DNA from: Anaerolineae bacterium
GTDB taxonomy: Bacteria; Chloroflexota; Anaerolineae; Aggregatilineales; Phototrophicaceae
NCBI GenBank assembly: GCA_022841825.1
Contig: JALHQT010000005.1
Location: forward strand, 1-64,000
Direction of reading: 5' to 3'
DNA: 64,000 nt
A program made the position numbers and the translations under genes. The notes below the pieces were generated by a model. It was not told where the DNA came from, did no database searches, and was given only the letters and a program-made list of their open reading frames with translations. This document shows, piece by piece, positions 23,477 to 38,981 of the stretch (positions are counted from its first letter, which is position 1; each line of letters begins with the position of its first letter).

Positions 23477-24541
23477 TTATGTCGAGCGCCCTGCCGTCAA
23501 CTGATCCTGATACGCCTTCATGCCGTCCATGTCGCCCTTGGCGGCATAGCTTGCCTGCTTCGCCCAGGTCGGCACGCTCGGCGCAAAACGCATCCCTGCC
23601 TTTTCGATGGCAGCGCGGATCATCTCTTCGCTCGCCTCCGCAAGCTGGGCAAAGGTCAGAATACCTGCCGCGTTCAGCGCCTTTTCCATCTTGGGACCAA
23701 TGCCCTCCACGACCTTGAGGTCGTCGGGGGTCACAGGCGCTTCCGCCTTCGCCTTTTTCGGCTTGGGTGCGGCGGGCGCTTTCTTGCCGGCGGGTTTTTC
23801 GGAGGCAGGTTCTTTCTTCGCGCGCGATTTGGCGGGTGCCTCGGCGGACGCTGCTTCTGCTATGGTCGGCACTTCGGGGGCGGGAGCGCTCGTCACGACA
23901 TAATCGCGCGAGACCACCTGCCCCGGCTCCAGCCCACGCACCAGGTAATCGCGGTACGTCACGAAACCAGGCTGATCGCCATCGGCGAGGTAGCGCGCCT
24001 GCTTCGACCAGTTGACAAGGCTGGGCGCCAACGTCAGCCCATGCTTTTCGACCGCAGCGCGCAGATCGGCAATGCTGGCGTCCGCAACTTTGCGATAAGT
24101 GTCAATACCTTCGGCACGCAGCGCCGCATCCATCTTCGGACCAATGCCTTCGATGATGAGGAGATCGTCTGGGTCACTCGACGCAGGAACGGGCTGTTCG
24201 GCTTTTGCGAACCCCATCATCACCGGCTCAGGAGACGGCGCAGCCGCCTCGACTGGGGTCGGCGCAGCAGACGATTCGGCGGGGGCGGGCATCGCCAGCG
24301 CAGCGGGGGTGTCGAATTCGCGCACGCGCGGGGGCACGACGGGTTCAGAGGCAGCAGAAGCAGGGACTTCCGCCACCGCAGAGCGCCCCCACAGGAACAG
24401 CAGCGCCGCCCCAACGACCAGCAACCCCGCAAGCCACCATTCGTCAACCGGTCGCTCGCGCACGATCAACCAGAGGATCACCAACAGCGCGGCGACCAAG
24501 AGACCCACTCCCCAGAAGGTTCGCGTGGTACGATCCAGCAT
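23477..24541 (-). CDS. Membrane-anchored protein with two helix-hairpin-helix domains
   Basis: 354 residues from ATG 24541, preceded by AGGGAGAG. Two N-terminal membrane helices (TFWGVGLLVAALLVILWLIV and WLAGLLVVGAALLFLW), an Ala/Pro-rich linker, then two similar domains each starting DDL..(I/V)EGIGPKM and containing a second helix pair and WxKQA(R/S)Y. They are joined by a Lys/Ala/Pro-rich linker (AKKEPASEKPAGKKAPAAPK). EGIGPK domains are Rad51-N/DUF4332-like HhH folds found in ribosomal, NADH-dehydrogenase-linked and structural proteins. DNA binding at the membrane is possible but unproven. Confidence 0.78.
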   Translation of the reverse strand: MLDRTTRTFWGVGLLVAALLVILWLIVRERPVDEWWLAGLLVVGAALLFLWGRSAVAEVPASAASEPVVPPRVREFDTPAALAMPAPAESSAAPTPVEAAAPSPEPVMMGFAKAEQPVPASSDPDDLLIIEGIGPKMDAALRAEGIDTYRKVADASIADLRAAVEKHGLTLAPSLVNWSKQARYLADGDQPGFVTYRDYLVRGLEPGQVVSRDYVVTSAPAPEVPTIAEAASAEAPAKSRAKKEPASEKPAGKKAPAAPKPKKAKAEAPVTPDDLKVVEGIGPKMEKALNAAGILTFAQLAEASEEMIRAAIEKAGMRFAPSVPTWAKQASYAAKGDMDGMKAYQDQLTAGRST

Positions 24542-24735
24542 AACTCTCCCTTTCTCATGCAGTTCGGTGATGGGCGCGTTGAAAAGTAAAGCTTGACAGA
24601 CGGACAGTGTAACTCCTGGCAAATACTGGCGTCAAACAGCAGACGCCGCATAAAACACTCCAGTAATTGGGATTTTAAGCCCTTAAAGATTACAGAATCA
24701 ATGACTTGTGAATTATTTCTGAATATTTCCCGGAA

Positions 24736-25668: not shown

Positions 25669-25811
25669 AAGGCAATCGCTCGAAAAAACGGCACTTCCAT
25701 GCAGACCGCGTGTTACATATAGATAAATCAGCCGCCAATGGGCAGCCACCTTATTCGCGCGTTCCAACACCGCACTTGCGCCGATGTGCCTGCGGTAGAA
25801 AATTAAACACG

Positions 25812-26687
25812 ATGTCCGCACTCACGCATGATCGAAAAAAAGTCAGAATGACAACCAAAGCGCCGCAGATCTCCCAAAACCTTCGGCAGCGCTGGATCAC
25901 GGCAATCATCTTCGGACCCATCGTCCTCGCGCTTATGGCAATTGGCGGGTGGTGGTTCTTCGGAGTCGCGCTCGCCCTGGCGACCATTGGAGCGCTGGAG
26001 TTTTGCAGTCTCGGGCGCAATCGTTCCATTCAACCCTCTGCCCTCTTAGCGGTCAGTACGACCGTCGCGACTGTCCTGGGCTTCGTCCTCGGCTGGACGT
26101 GGGCAGTCGTCGCGGCATTCGCGCTCGCCTTCGTACTGGCACTCGCATCGAGCCTGCTCAGACGGCGAACCCCTCGTGCCGCGCTGCTTGACGCACTGAT
26201 GACCATCGCGGCGCCCGCCTATGTCGCGCTGCCCGCCGGGATGCTGGCGCTTGTGCGTATGACCGAGCCAGGAGGCTTGCACTGGCTGCTGCTGATCGTC
26301 TTTCTCACCTGGGGGACGGACTCACTGGCGTATTTCGGGGGTCGCACCTGGGGCAGGACACTGCTCGCCCCGCGCATCTCACCCAAAAAGACGGTCGAAG
26401 GTGCGATTGTCGGCGTCAGTGGCGGCTTTGTCGTCGGTTTAGTACTGCTGCTCATCGCAGGCGCGTATCAGGTGGCGCTGCTCCCGCTCCTCATCGTTGC
26501 GCCCCTGGTCGCGGTCATCGGCGATCTGAGCGAGTCCGCGCTCAAACGTGCGTTCGACGTCAAGGATTCGCATCTCAGCCACTTCGATCTGTTTCCTGGT
26601 CATGGCGGCGTCCTCGACCGCACGGATGCTTTGATCCTGGTCACCTGGTTTTGTTTTGTCGTTTACCACGGGGTCGGGATACTCTAA
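25812..26687 (+). CDS. cdsA: Phosphatidate cytidylyltransferase
   Basis: 291 residues from ATG 25812 (ATG 25848 is an alternative). Makes CDP-diacylglycerol, the precursor of phospholipids, in the cytoplasmic membrane. Seen: about seven membrane helices starting RWITAIIFGPIVLALMAIGG, the WGTDSLAYFGGRTWG segment with K-T-V-E in SPKKTVEGAI, and the family signature SALKRAFDVKDSHL...PGHGGVLDRTDALI at the C-terminus. Length and motifs are standard. The upstream gap has no clear promoter. Confidence 0.93.
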   Translation: MSALTHDRKKVRMTTKAPQISQNLRQRWITAIIFGPIVLALMAIGGWWFFGVALALATIGALEFCSLGRNRSIQPSALLAVSTTVATVLGFVLGWTWAVVAAFALAFVLALASSLLRRRTPRAALLDALMTIAAPAYVALPAGMLALVRMTEPGGLHWLLLIVFLTWGTDSLAYFGGRTWGRTLLAPRISPKKTVEGAIVGVSGGFVVGLVLLLIAGAYQVALLPLLIVAPLVAVIGDLSESALKRAFDVKDSHLSHFDLFPGHGGVLDRTDALILVTWFCFVVYHGVGIL

Positions 26688-26754: not shown

Positions 26755-27141
26755 ATGTCGGTATCCAAACCCCCGAAGACGTCCAACGCCCCTAATCGTG
26801 AAGAACTGCTGCTGATGGCGATTGATGCCGCAAAAGCAGGGCAAAAAGAGGGGGCACGCATGATGTTGCGGAAGATCCTCGCGGAAGATAAACGCAATGA
26901 ACGCGCGCTCATGTGGATGGCAAAGCTTTCTGATAGCAAAGCCGAACAAACCCAATGGCTGCAAAAGGCACTCGCTATCAATCCGGATAACACGATTGCC
27001 CGACAGTCGCTTGACCGCATGAGATACAGCGGTGCCGCGCGCGACAACCGCACGCTGATCATCTTTGGTGTGGTCGCCGCAGTTCTGGTCGTGCTGCTGT
27101 TGGTCATCTTCCTGGTGATCGCAACGGGCACATTGGGATAG
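26755..27141 (+). CDS. TPR-like protein with C-terminal membrane anchor
   Basis: 128 residues. An N-terminal pair of TPR-like helices (REELLLMAIDAAKAGQKEGA, RMMLRKILAEDKRNERALMW, SKAEQTQWLQKALAINPDNT), then a single membrane helix (about 102-124, LIIFGVVAAVLVVLLLVIFL) close to the C-terminus. The same TPR-TM plan is used at the N-terminus of the next two genes, but here the protein stops after the helix with no propeller. Member of a local paralogous family. The TPR part is predicted cytoplasmic. Confidence 0.78.
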   Translation: MSVSKPPKTSNAPNREELLLMAIDAAKAGQKEGARMMLRKILAEDKRNERALMWMAKLSDSKAEQTQWLQKALAINPDNTIARQSLDRMRYSGAARDNRTLIIFGVVAAVLVVLLLVIFLVIATGTLG

Positions 27142-27237
27142 TTGTTGAATAGGACTTAATCCTGCTCGCCTCTAATCTGATGAATAATGTAAGCTAGTAT
27201 CGTTTATGCTGCGCGTTACCTGCGCCATCTGACGGGC

Positions 27238-28806
27238 ATGACGCAAAGCACAATATCAGGAGAGAGCGGCTTGGCAGAAAACACACAAGACAAGCTCAAA
27301 CAGGCAATCGCCGCAGCGCAGCGCGGCGACAAGACTGCCGCCCGACGAATGCTGCAGCAGGTCCTCGGCGAAGACCGAGATAACGAACTCGCCTGGATCT
27401 GGATGGCATCCGTCGTCGATTCGTTCGATGAGCGGCGGGCGTGCCTGGAGCGAGTCCTCAAGATTAACCCCAACAACGCGCGCGCCAAAGAAGCGCTGCG
27501 TCGCCTGGGTTTCGATGCACCGACCGAGCGCACCGCTGCCGGGTCACCCTCTGCGGCAACAGCAACGACCGCCGCCGCAGGTGCCATCCGCGGCGGAGGC
27601 AACCGTACCCTCTACTTTGCGATTGGCGCAGCCATCACCATCGTGCTGATCGCGCTCGTCGTGGCGTCCTTGTTGTCTGGCGGACCGAGTGACTCGGATG
27701 TGCGTTCGACCGCGACGACCTTCGCCATCGCGCAGCTTCCCACCAGCATTCCACCCACGATTGACCCTGACACCTTCACGGCGACACCGTTCCTCGGCGT
27801 TCGGGTCACCCTGGGAAGCGATTCGTTAACACGGCTGCCTCCTACTTTTACACCCACCGTGGCGGCAACCGCGACAGAACTGCCACCCCCAACCGCGACC
27901 CCGCTGCCGTTGGCTAGCTTCCCCCTGGTCTATACCGCTCTGACGAGCGATGGGCAAACAGAACTGTTCGCACTCAATGCGGATGGCAGCGGTTTGCGCC
28001 CCGTGGCGCAGGGTTTTGGCGACCCATTCGCTGTCAACCCTGCCGGAGACCAGATTGCGTTCATCCGTCTCGTCCCCGCCAGCAGCGACTTCGTGCCGCC
28101 GACACCCGCCGAGGGAGAAGATGCTCCCCCAGCCACCAACCTGATGCCGCAGATCTTTGTTGCGCCGCTCCAGGATACCGCGTCGGCACGGCAGGTTACG
28201 CAAATGATCGGCTCGACCATGTCTAGACCCGCCTGGTCGCCTGACGGTGAGCGCATCGTCTTCAGCAGCAACCAGGACGGTGATTCAGAGCTGTACATCA
28301 TCGACGCCGACGGCGGCAGCCCTCCCACCGCGCTGACAGCCAACGACGCGAACGATACTGACCCCAGCATCAGCGCCGATGGGCGACTGGTCGTCTTCGC
28401 CTCCGACCTGGAGACTCCCGGTTCGCAGGAAATCTTCAGCGTTTCGATTGATGGCGGCGAGATGCGTCAGTTGACGAATGCCAGTGGGAGCAGCACATCG
28501 CCAGTGTTCTCGCCAGATGGTTCTCGTATCACCTTCGTCAGCGACCGCGGAGGCGATGGCGACATCTGGATCATGGATGCCAATGGTCAGCGTCCCTTCC
28601 TCGTCACCATTGACGACGGAGGTGCCGAAGACCGGGCACCTGTCTGGACGCCCGATCTGCGCTGGATCGCCTTTGTTTCCAATCGTGGAGGCGAACGCTT
28701 CCAGGCATATTTGATCTCGCTAGACGGCAGCACGCTCCTGCCCATCACAGACGATCCCGACAACGTTCAATCCCTCGGTATGCTGCCGATCTCGCGGTCA
28801 GGTTAA
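27238..28806 (+). CDS. TPR - membrane helix - PD40 beta-propeller protein
   Basis: 522 residues. Domains in order: TPR-like helices (15-90: KLKQAIAAAQRGDKTAARRM, WIWMASVVDSFDERRACLER, LKINPNNARAKEAL), membrane helix (about 122-146, LYFAIGAAITIVLIALVVAS), Thr/Pro-rich linker (to about 225), then TolB-like PD40 repeats with SPDGERIVFSSNQDGDSELY, SADGRLVVFASD, SPDGSRITFVSDRGGDGDIW and TPDLRWIAFVSNRGG. The propeller should lie outside the membrane. It probably senses or binds something extracellular and reports to the TPR side, which is inference. Eight bp separate it from the next paralogue. Confidence 0.85.
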   Translation: MTQSTISGESGLAENTQDKLKQAIAAAQRGDKTAARRMLQQVLGEDRDNELAWIWMASVVDSFDERRACLERVLKINPNNARAKEALRRLGFDAPTERTAAGSPSAATATTAAAGAIRGGGNRTLYFAIGAAITIVLIALVVASLLSGGPSDSDVRSTATTFAIAQLPTSIPPTIDPDTFTATPFLGVRVTLGSDSLTRLPPTFTPTVAATATELPPPTATPLPLASFPLVYTALTSDGQTELFALNADGSGLRPVAQGFGDPFAVNPAGDQIAFIRLVPASSDFVPPTPAEGEDAPPATNLMPQIFVAPLQDTASARQVTQMIGSTMSRPAWSPDGERIVFSSNQDGDSELYIIDADGGSPPTALTANDANDTDPSISADGRLVVFASDLETPGSQEIFSVSIDGGEMRQLTNASGSSTSPVFSPDGSRITFVSDRGGDGDIWIMDANGQRPFLVTIDDGGAEDRAPVWTPDLRWIAFVSNRGGERFQAYLISLDGSTLLPITDDPDNVQSLGMLPISRSG

Positions 28807-28813
28807 GGTATCC

Positions 28814-30295
28814 ATGTCAACTCAGATCAAGGAACTCATGCAGGATGGCATCGAGAAAGCGCGCCTCGGCGAACGAGCGGAGGCGCGCGAAGTCTTCGAG
28901 CAAGTCATCGCACTGGATGATAAAAACGAGAAAGCCTGGTTCTGGCTGGCTTCAGTGCTCGACGACGAGGCGCGGAAGAAAGTCGCCTTGAGCACTGTCC
29001 TGATGCTGAACCCGGATAACGAACGCGCCAAAAAGATTCTGGACTCGCTCGAGGCGCGCGATCGTGAACTCCAGGAACGAGATGAAATCATCCCAGGCGT
29101 CTCTCGCCGCGCGTTGACTCTGATGGTCGGCGGTGGGGGTGCCATCATCGTCGGCGTCATCGCCATCTTCATCATCATCACGCTCAACAATGCCCGCATC
29201 GCAGGCGATGCTCAGGCGACCGTGCAGGTAGCAACCCAGGCAGTGCTGGATGCACAGGCGTCGCAGACCGCGGTGATGGCGGCATTCAACGCGACGCTGG
29301 CGGCAACCACCCCAACACCCGTCGATCTTCAGGCAGTCGTTCGCACGCTTCCCCCAACCTTCACGCCGACCGCGCCGCCCTCGCCCACCCCAGCACCGGA
29401 AATCCTGCCTCCCCCGACAGGGATTAGTGGCAATCTGACCGTCTGGTCGGGTCGAGACTTTGACGTCAACGGTTATTTGCCCGTTGGAATCATTTCGGTC
29501 TCTACAGGCGCTTTCCAAAGAGCGGGTGAGCAGGAAGGACGCGATGTCGCGGTTTCGCCGGACGGCTCACGGTTGGTCTACACCCGTTTTCAGCCAGCAG
29601 TCTTCGACACGCTGATCGAAGCCATCAATGTCAATGGCACCAATCCCGAATCGCTTGGCGATCGCTGGATCGATCTGCAAACGCTCTTCAGCCCACGCCA
29701 CCCCAGTTACTCCGCCAGCGGCGATGCCATCATCTTTGTCGCGCGCCCAGACGGCAGCCTGACCGAGCAGATCTTTTTGCTTTCGCTGCTGGAAACGCCG
29801 CCGGACGTCAGCCCGCTGCGGCAGATTTCGACGGATGCCGCGACCTATACGCAGCCTGTCATCTCACCCGATGGTACGAAGGTGGTTGCCGTCCGTGACG
29901 ATGTCAACTCGGCGGACGCTGGCGCGGATCTCGTCATCATCGATCTGGCGACAGGCTTTGTAACCGCCCTGACCAATGATCGCGCGGCATTCGTCGAGTC
30001 ATCGCCGCAGTGGTCGCCAGACGGCGCACAGATCGTCTTCGCGGCTGCACCACAATCCGCGCCCAACAACGCGGACATCTTTGTCCGTTTCAGCAATGGC
30101 GGCGGCGCGCCCACCATCGTTGCGCGCGACCCCTCAAACGAAGTCACGCCGGTCTTCAGCCCTGACGGTCGTCACATCGCCTATGCCAGCAACCGGCTCG
30201 GCAATTACGACATCTACATCTTTGACCAGACGACGGCGACGATCAGTCAGCTCACCAACACCGTCGAGGACGAGTACATTGGGGGATGGCGATAG
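28814..30295 (+). CDS. TPR - membrane helix - PD40 beta-propeller protein (paralogue)
   Basis: 493 residues with the same plan as its upstream neighbour: TPR-like helices (EKARLGERAEAREVFEQVIA, LDDKNEKAWFWLASVLDDEA, LMLNPDNERAKKIL), membrane helix (about 96-122, MVGGGGAIIVGVIAIFIIIT), Ala/Thr/Pro linker, and a C-terminal propeller with VSPDGSRLVYTRFQ, SASGDAIIFVARPDGS, SPDGTKVVAVRDD, SPDGAQIVFAAAPQS and SPDGRHIAYASNRLGNYDIY. It is co-transcribed with 27238-28806. An ACGAGT-type palindrome follows its stop. Confidence 0.85.
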   Translation: MSTQIKELMQDGIEKARLGERAEAREVFEQVIALDDKNEKAWFWLASVLDDEARKKVALSTVLMLNPDNERAKKILDSLEARDRELQERDEIIPGVSRRALTLMVGGGGAIIVGVIAIFIIITLNNARIAGDAQATVQVATQAVLDAQASQTAVMAAFNATLAATTPTPVDLQAVVRTLPPTFTPTAPPSPTPAPEILPPPTGISGNLTVWSGRDFDVNGYLPVGIISVSTGAFQRAGEQEGRDVAVSPDGSRLVYTRFQPAVFDTLIEAINVNGTNPESLGDRWIDLQTLFSPRHPSYSASGDAIIFVARPDGSLTEQIFLLSLLETPPDVSPLRQISTDAATYTQPVISPDGTKVVAVRDDVNSADAGADLVIIDLATGFVTALTNDRAAFVESSPQWSPDGAQIVFAAAPQSAPNNADIFVRFSNGGGAPTIVARDPSNEVTPVFSPDGRHIAYASNRLGNYDIYIFDQTTATISQLTNTVEDEYIGGWR

Positions 30296-38471: not shown

Positions 38472-38981
38472 TCAAAAGCCGTAGATTAGAATACTTAGCA
38501 AGATCCCGATGCCGACCGCCAACATCCCGAAGATAAGCGCCAGTACCACCAAGCGCATCACCGGAGATCGAGGAAGCAAGCTGGATCGTCCCGCCTCCGC
38601 CACAGCCTGCGGGGCTTCCATGCCTAACTGGCGGATGCCCCTTGGAGCCGTCACCTCCGCGAAGTTCTGCGCGGGCAGCGGCGGCGTCAGATCGATCATG
38701 CTGACATCCATGTGCGCCAGGCGCAGCAGTCGTTTCGCTTCGAGGCTGTTCGGGTTGATGACGAGGATGTTCTCCAGGCAGACGACGCGGTCACTTTCAG
38801 TCTCGACAAGGTCGATCAGCGCCCACCAGATGGTCTCGTCTTCGGGGGCGATCTTCGCCGCTTCCTGCAGCAGTTTGTACGCTTTGGCGCGGTCGCCGTC
38901 GCGCAGCGCTGCACGACTGCCATTGATAAGCGTGATCACCATCGGATCACGTTCAAATTTCAGACTATCGAGTTCTGCCAA
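38472..38981 (-). CDS. TPR-like protein with C-terminal membrane helix
   Basis: 169 residues from a TTG at 38981 with GAGGA upstream; ATG 38942 is an alternative. TPR-like helices: SRAALRDGDRAKAYKLLQEA, DETIWWALIDLVETESDRVV, LVINPNSLEAKRLLRLAH. A Pro-rich linker then leads to a C-terminal membrane helix (about 142-167, LVVLALIFGMLAVGIGILLS). Same architecture and words (ETESDRVVCLENILVINPNS) as the 26755-30295 family. Member of that paralogous set without a propeller. It ends 22 bp before the manA start. Confidence 0.75.
   Translation of the reverse strand: MAELDSLKFERDPMVITLINGSRAALRDGDRAKAYKLLQEAAKIAPEDETIWWALIDLVETESDRVVCLENILVINPNSLEAKRLLRLAHMDVSMIDLTPPLPAQNFAEVTAPRGIRQLGMEAPQAVAEAGRSSLLPRSPVMRLVVLALIFGMLAVGIGILLSILIYGF

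Follow-up and report, generated by a model that had tools for sequence, protein, structure and literature searches.

In a 64,000-nucleotide window on contig 5 of an Anaerolineae genome (5.9 Mb, 95.67% complete), three adjacent genes and a fourth further downstream encode chains in which a TPR-like module is followed by a membrane helix, and two of these chains continue into a propeller. What would such a set do at the cell envelope? A sequence-only reading had proposed a transmembrane signalling or envelope-scaffold family. We examined the genes, their predicted folds and topology, and their occurrence and neighbourhood in other Chloroflexota genomes.

The four chains and their TPR module

The four genes, named A to D here, and the gene upstream of A are as follows.

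25710..26687, + strand: cdsA-like phosphatidate cytidylyltransferase (Pfam CTP_transf_1, E 1.2e-51), 67 bases upstream of A
26755..27141, + strand: gene A, 128 aa; TPR module at about 13-92, TM helix at 101-119 with 9 residues behind it; marker of the cassette, with 22 aligned sequences and a single clade in the module tree
27238..28806, + strand: gene B, 522 aa; TPR module, TM helix at 128-146, low-confidence Thr/Pro linker at about 147-214, TolB-like propeller at about 225-517
28814..30295, + strand: gene C, 493 aa; TPR module, TM helix at 104-122 with a frequent juxtamembrane PG-x-x-RR, Ala-rich low-confidence helix at about 133-165, Thr/Pro linker, second TolB-like propeller at about 207-492
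38472..38981, - strand: gene D, 169 aa, TTG start as listed; TPR module, TM helix at 144-162 as a predicted N-in tail anchor

All four open reading frames were found at these positions, D lying 8 kb from C on the opposite strand, and each of the four chains has a single strong hydrophobic helix. In BLASTP comparisons the module region connected A with B, A with C, B with D and C with D (E 1.8e-18 to 1.8e-8), and the propellers connected B with C (E 3.1e-14); A and D gave no significant direct BLASTP match. A profile of the four modules, run against the whole genome, ranked A-D at the top by construction (E 5e-39 to 7.5e-36) and reached eight further places at E 0.01, two of them weak. These results confirmed the arrangement first read from the letters, a tandem A-B-C plus D at 38472 with a common module and then one TM helix. 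The peptide words LxINPxNxxAKxxL, which had been given as shared by the genes, held exactly in B and not elsewhere: A has R for K, C has LNP and D has NPNS. Such words are the ordinary TPR consensus and were rejected as a family signature; a profile of the 84 residues common to A-D was used instead.

When 52 modules were scanned alone at E 0.01, TPR_14 matched 51 and TPR_19 matched 47, and the B module alone exceeded both cut-offs, while full-length A-D fell slightly under the Pfam TPR cut-offs. The B model has five helices at 10-89, with blocks 11-90 at pLDDT 81-97. From these profile matches and the helical repeat fold in the B model, the module belongs to the TPR superfamily. Fis1 is a tail-anchored TPR protein with a C-terminal helix, and A and D are likewise small TPR proteins ending in such a helix, with Fis1_TPR_C matched by 5 of the 52 modules (E 0.01). 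However, A and D are bacterial and stand in a cassette with propeller proteins, and the resemblance is weak and at the TPR level.

In the tree of the 52 modules, A formed one clade (15/15, support 0.965), as did D (7/7, support 0.981). B fell to 9/13 in one clade (support 0.244) and C to 11/12 (0.765), so that by module alone these two are not fully resolved. Full-length profiles, built from the same families that they separate, distinguished the two in all complete pairs. That four chains have one TPR family in common, and that A and D form clades of their own, suggests paralogues kept as distinct parts rather than recent copies. Conservation in the first repeat was higher in the groove than at outer positions in A (2.73 vs 2.25) and B (2.56 vs 1.56), and hardly or not higher in C (2.11 vs 2.06) and D (2.02 vs 2.26).

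Predicted propellers and topology

PD40 repeats were matched in B (E 1.5e-35) and C (E 2.2e-22). The AlphaFold model of B (mean pLDDT 79.3) shows helices at 10-89, a TM helix at 123-146, a low-confidence linker and a propeller, which is six-bladed by our reading of the strand list; the model of C (mean pLDDT 76.9) is like that of B, with region 89-179, including the TM helix, at low confidence. In both models the linker is of low confidence, and the parts on either side of it are folded. The top Foldseek matches were TolB 1c5k for B (E 1.5e-19) and TolB/Pal 4r40 for C (E 1.9e-14). B and C are thus predicted to carry different TolB-like propellers behind Thr/Pro linkers; with PD40 repeats and structure models in agreement, the earlier assignment of linker and propeller to two of the genes was borne out.

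Topology was judged by counting K and R in the 15 residues before the TM helix against those after it. An excess before the helix was found in 22/22 copies of A, 8/8 TM-bearing copies of D (2 of the 10 aligned D copies have no TM helix), 14/16 copies of B (2 reversed) and 12/16 of C (2 ties, 2 reversed). The flanking charges, together with the Thr/Pro linkers and propellers behind the helix, support the prediction that the TPR modules are cytosolic and the propellers extracytoplasmic. The sequence-only reading, which had coupled an outside propeller to an inside TPR module in one chain, is supported on the same charge evidence, and the two domains do not come out on one side.

Does the TolB-like fold make these proteins part of a Tol-Pal system? 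The PD40 propeller is shared with TolB, and TolB chains are the best structural matches of B and C, but here the propellers are tethered by a TPR-TM stalk, and the NCBIfam TolB scores are 143.2 bits for B and 94.4 bits for C against a cut-off of 343.15. TolB_N (PF04052) gave no match in the analysed genome (95.67% complete), with a control search positive in 3/14 genomes, and Omp85 (PF01103), taken as a proxy for an outer membrane, gave none in the same genome, with a control search positive in 7/14. Membership of Tol-Pal was rejected because no TolB_N and no Omp85 were found. The earlier label TolB-like therefore stands for the fold, through Foldseek and the models, and not for the system.

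The cassette across genomes

A profile search with A at E 1e-20 covered 396 genomes of the class and found A in at least 22 of them, all of one order. Among the matches listed, A was present in at least 14 of 28 genomes of the same family and at least 8 of 9 from other families of the order; beyond the order it occurred in 0/359 genomes among the matches listed at E 1e-20, judged by listing order. Two further A-bearing genomes (L015, L016) came from another search, giving 24 in total, several of which share a genus (four g15, two g16, two g4, two g9, three g1). The A-B-C-D set is dispensable, since 14/28 family genomes gave no A among the matches listed at E 1e-20. In one genome of this family (G146), where A was not found at E 1e-20, the contig breaks off within a gene with a B-like N-terminus (L180:4895-5354).

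A, B and C are contiguous, in the same order and on the same strand, in 17 of the 24 genomes, which represent five families of the one order; this count includes L052, with a 520-base gap after A. The B-C pair lies far from A in four genomes (L124, L174, L175, L176) and is intact in all four. In G019 (L062, L179), A and B-C stand at the ends of two contigs, A 230 and B 285 bases from the ends, and this genome was counted neither as contiguous nor as A-distant because contig ends intervene. In the other two genomes (L053, L058) the contig ends in B; the B frame of L058 terminates in a low-complexity stretch, 16 bases short of that end. B and C are same-strand neighbours in 22/24 genomes, that is, in 22/22 where this can be judged, with a median gap of 28 bases (range -4 to 495, gene starts taken as the first possible start).

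In 11 of the 17 contiguous cassettes D is the gene immediately after C, and no D is next to C in the other six (the window, L059, L060, L061, L063, L067). In four f2 loci of one genus (L065, L066, L177, L178), D is 91-116 aa long and still next to C; the two short copies tested (L065, L066) gave no TM helix. That short D stays by C fits binding through the module itself.

The outer flanks of the cassette vary, and the genes upstream of A differ among families. This bears on the view that the chains are independent paralogues, the module being a lineage habit of N-in membrane proteins, perhaps as a help in targeting or insertion, and the cluster an old tandem duplication with no joint function. 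Tandem pairs of module genes with other outer parts do occur in other Chloroflexota (e.g., L077, L108/L125, L126), but a cluster of this kind is at odds with an A-B-C order kept across five families while the flanks differ, and with a B-C pair that holds together where A is far. We consider this view improbable.

The cdsA cluster adjoins A in the window, L049, L050, L051 and L053, which belong to one family and two genera, and in L058 it is 8.5 kb from A; as a cassette member cdsA was judged weak, being confined to one family and not kept across families. An N-acetylmuramoyl-L-alanine amidase gene (Amidase_2) follows A with an overlap or a 1-base gap at L055:9077-10271 and L057:9717-10869, which may point to the wall. 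The gene neighbouring A in L054 and L056 does not match Amidase_2, and the single Amidase_2 match of the analysed genome is on another contig than the cassette. The amidase was judged weak as a cassette partner, since L055 and L057 are of one genus only. Gene clusters around the cassette that are shared between families exist, and those identified either belong to large common families or vary in where they lie: cluster c9 (L059, L061, L067) touches A only in L067, and c10 (L059, L061, L064) only in L064. Within the window, a minus-strand gene at 23477-24622 has an N-terminal hydrophobic stretch and helix-hairpin-helix or DUF4332-like matches.

Module family, signalling neighbours and a candidate membrane assembly

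The 52-row module profile, run against 300 Chloroflexota genomes (completeness floor 90, E 1e-10), found the module in at least 81 of them. In a small control of four genomes from other phyla (three archaeal, one alphaproteobacterial; E 1e-6) it found none. A PDB sequence search with the module returned designed and generic TPRs; the profile therefore also sees ordinary TPRs, and single weak matches should not be over-read. A wider family does exist, as the genome-wide and Chloroflexota searches both show, and the case of no such family, named beforehand as a refutation, did not come true.

Among 75 module ORFs, a set with many close orthologues and with some frames cut where the locus ends, the module was N-terminal in 73. 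A later TM helix was present in 56 of these 73, exactly one in 43, and none was found in 17, 5 of which were cut. Behind the module we found TPR arrays (L142; L007 in the analysed genome), polytopic or zinc-ribbon-like parts (the latter by eye), and, in L010 of the analysed genome, a weak PPC match below cut-off, besides many regions with no domain assignment. The module thus heads varied, mostly membrane-anchored Chloroflexota proteins. Among other forms, L013 of the analysed genome (C8:375893-376012; 407 aa) has a partial module match followed by a trypsin-like serine protease domain, with a putative zinc ribbon and no TM helix. Stand-alone modules with no TM helix occur in two genomes of one genus (L116, 100 aa; L117, 87 aa). 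Adjacent module-TM-linker pairs with another outer part, parallel to B-C, were seen at L108/L125:9740-10837 and L126:8636-11274.

That a single kind of inner module is combined with so many outer parts suggests that it serves a common client inside. The modules may accordingly be adaptors that dock a single cytosolic protein, for instance of the growth or secretion machinery, and bring it to differing outer domains, and the N-terminal module, frequent later TM helix and varied parts behind it fit that view. By itself, however, a shared client does not explain the cohesion of B and C or that A and D mostly travel along, and the groove residues partly differ among A, B, C and D. We regard such an adaptor as rather unlikely.

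Downstream neighbours were annotated for 15 contiguous cassettes (L177 and L178 were left out). The next gene is a signalling gene in 7/15, as a raw count, and is of three kinds: an MCP after D in L015, L016, L050 and L051, a GAF-cyclase after D in L065 and L066, and an OmpR-type response regulator after D in L064. Of the other eight loci, L052 and L060 have a next gene with no match, L059 and L061 one for a LysE-type protein, and single loci one for a peptide-binding protein (window), CN hydrolase (L049), glycosyltransferase (L063) or PHP-domain protein (L067). L050 and L067 also have histidine kinases no more than about 6 kb from the cassette.

These neighbours are a lead towards a transmembrane sensor, in which a ligand on the propellers would rearrange the TPR modules and signal to a regulator, either soluble or in the membrane. 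Single-pass chains that are predicted N-in and have their propeller outside would suit such a role, and PknD is a receptor kinase with an inner effector, a TM helix and an outer propeller. The likeness of B and C to PknD-type receptors is one of topology alone: the PknD propeller is of the NHL kind rather than TolB-like, B and C have no kinase, and here several chains share the inner module. Against a sensor, the next gene in the remaining 8/15 loci is something else or has no match, the MCP and response regulator genes are convergent to the cassette and not co-transcribed, and the three signalling kinds fall in about three lineages. Pfam and NCBIfam gave no output domain on the A-D chains, with only TPR inside. 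We think a sensor unlikely. The earlier proposal of transmembrane signalling thus has no output domain on these chains behind it, though output may run through a separate partner; the neighbours in 7/15 loci leave a lead, which stays a lead because they are of three different kinds. The other half of that proposal, an envelope-scaffold family, would fit.

That the genes are linked and have an inner module in common speaks for a single membrane assembly. The reading we prefer, tentatively and at rather less than an even chance, is a membrane complex joined inside by its TPR modules and showing two propellers to the wall or surface. The cytosolic modules of A-D would bind one another, perhaps with one cytosolic client. 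A and D, which have no outer domain, would bring B and C together as linkers or caps, and the two propellers would then stand next to each other on the outer side of the membrane, where they would bind a surface protein or a polymer of the wall. The role of such a complex would be that of a scaffold, not an enzyme, linking a ligand outside to an organising point inside. The B-C pairing, A-B-C order, adjacency of D (short copies included), single TPR family on four chains, separate A and D clades, low-confidence linkers between folded parts and N-in charge speak for it. Against it stand the four genomes with A away from B-C, the 6/17 contiguous cassettes with no D by C, the 14/28 family genomes that gave no A at E 1e-20, the incomplete separation of B and C in the module tree, a groove that is the better conserved part in A and B and not in C or D, and the signalling neighbours, which lean towards a sensor.

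A single chain joining outer and inner parts has a counterpart in the polar landmark proteins FimV/HubP, which carry an extracytoplasmic LysM-like domain, a TM region and a cytosolic TPR (PMC12918733). B and C are alike in having an outer domain, a TM helix and a cytosolic TPR on one chain, but FimV/HubP have their TPR at the C-terminus and a LysM-like part outside, so that domain order and outer domain differ. No FimV or LysM family was matched on A-D in Pfam or NCBIfam at E 0.1.

The Chloroflexota envelope is usually considered monoderm, often multilayered and without BAM or LPS genes, and tomograms recently obtained from two members have been interpreted as diderm-like (PMC13319060). That Omp85 and TolB_N gave no match in the analysed genome agrees with the BAM lack stated there. 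For these reasons, namely the absence of Omp85 and TolB_N matches, the reported BAM lack and the tomograms read as diderm, outside here means wall, surface or an atypical outer layer.

What is new is the conserved cassette and the domain combination; the single parts are of known kinds, and a search of the open-licence PMC literature found no description of the TPR-TM-propeller architecture or the cassette. A broader and more speculative possibility, which we think doubtful, is a lineage-specific Chloroflexota system for organising the envelope, with TPR modules as an inner-face assembly code that gathers varied single-pass surface proteins. Within it, A-B-C-D would be the example with the strongest conservation, and its two tethered TolB-like propellers would read the wall or surface in the absence of Tol-Pal. 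The Chloroflexota envelope is unusual and disputed, and a conserved inside-helix-outside cassette offers concrete genes with which to test it.
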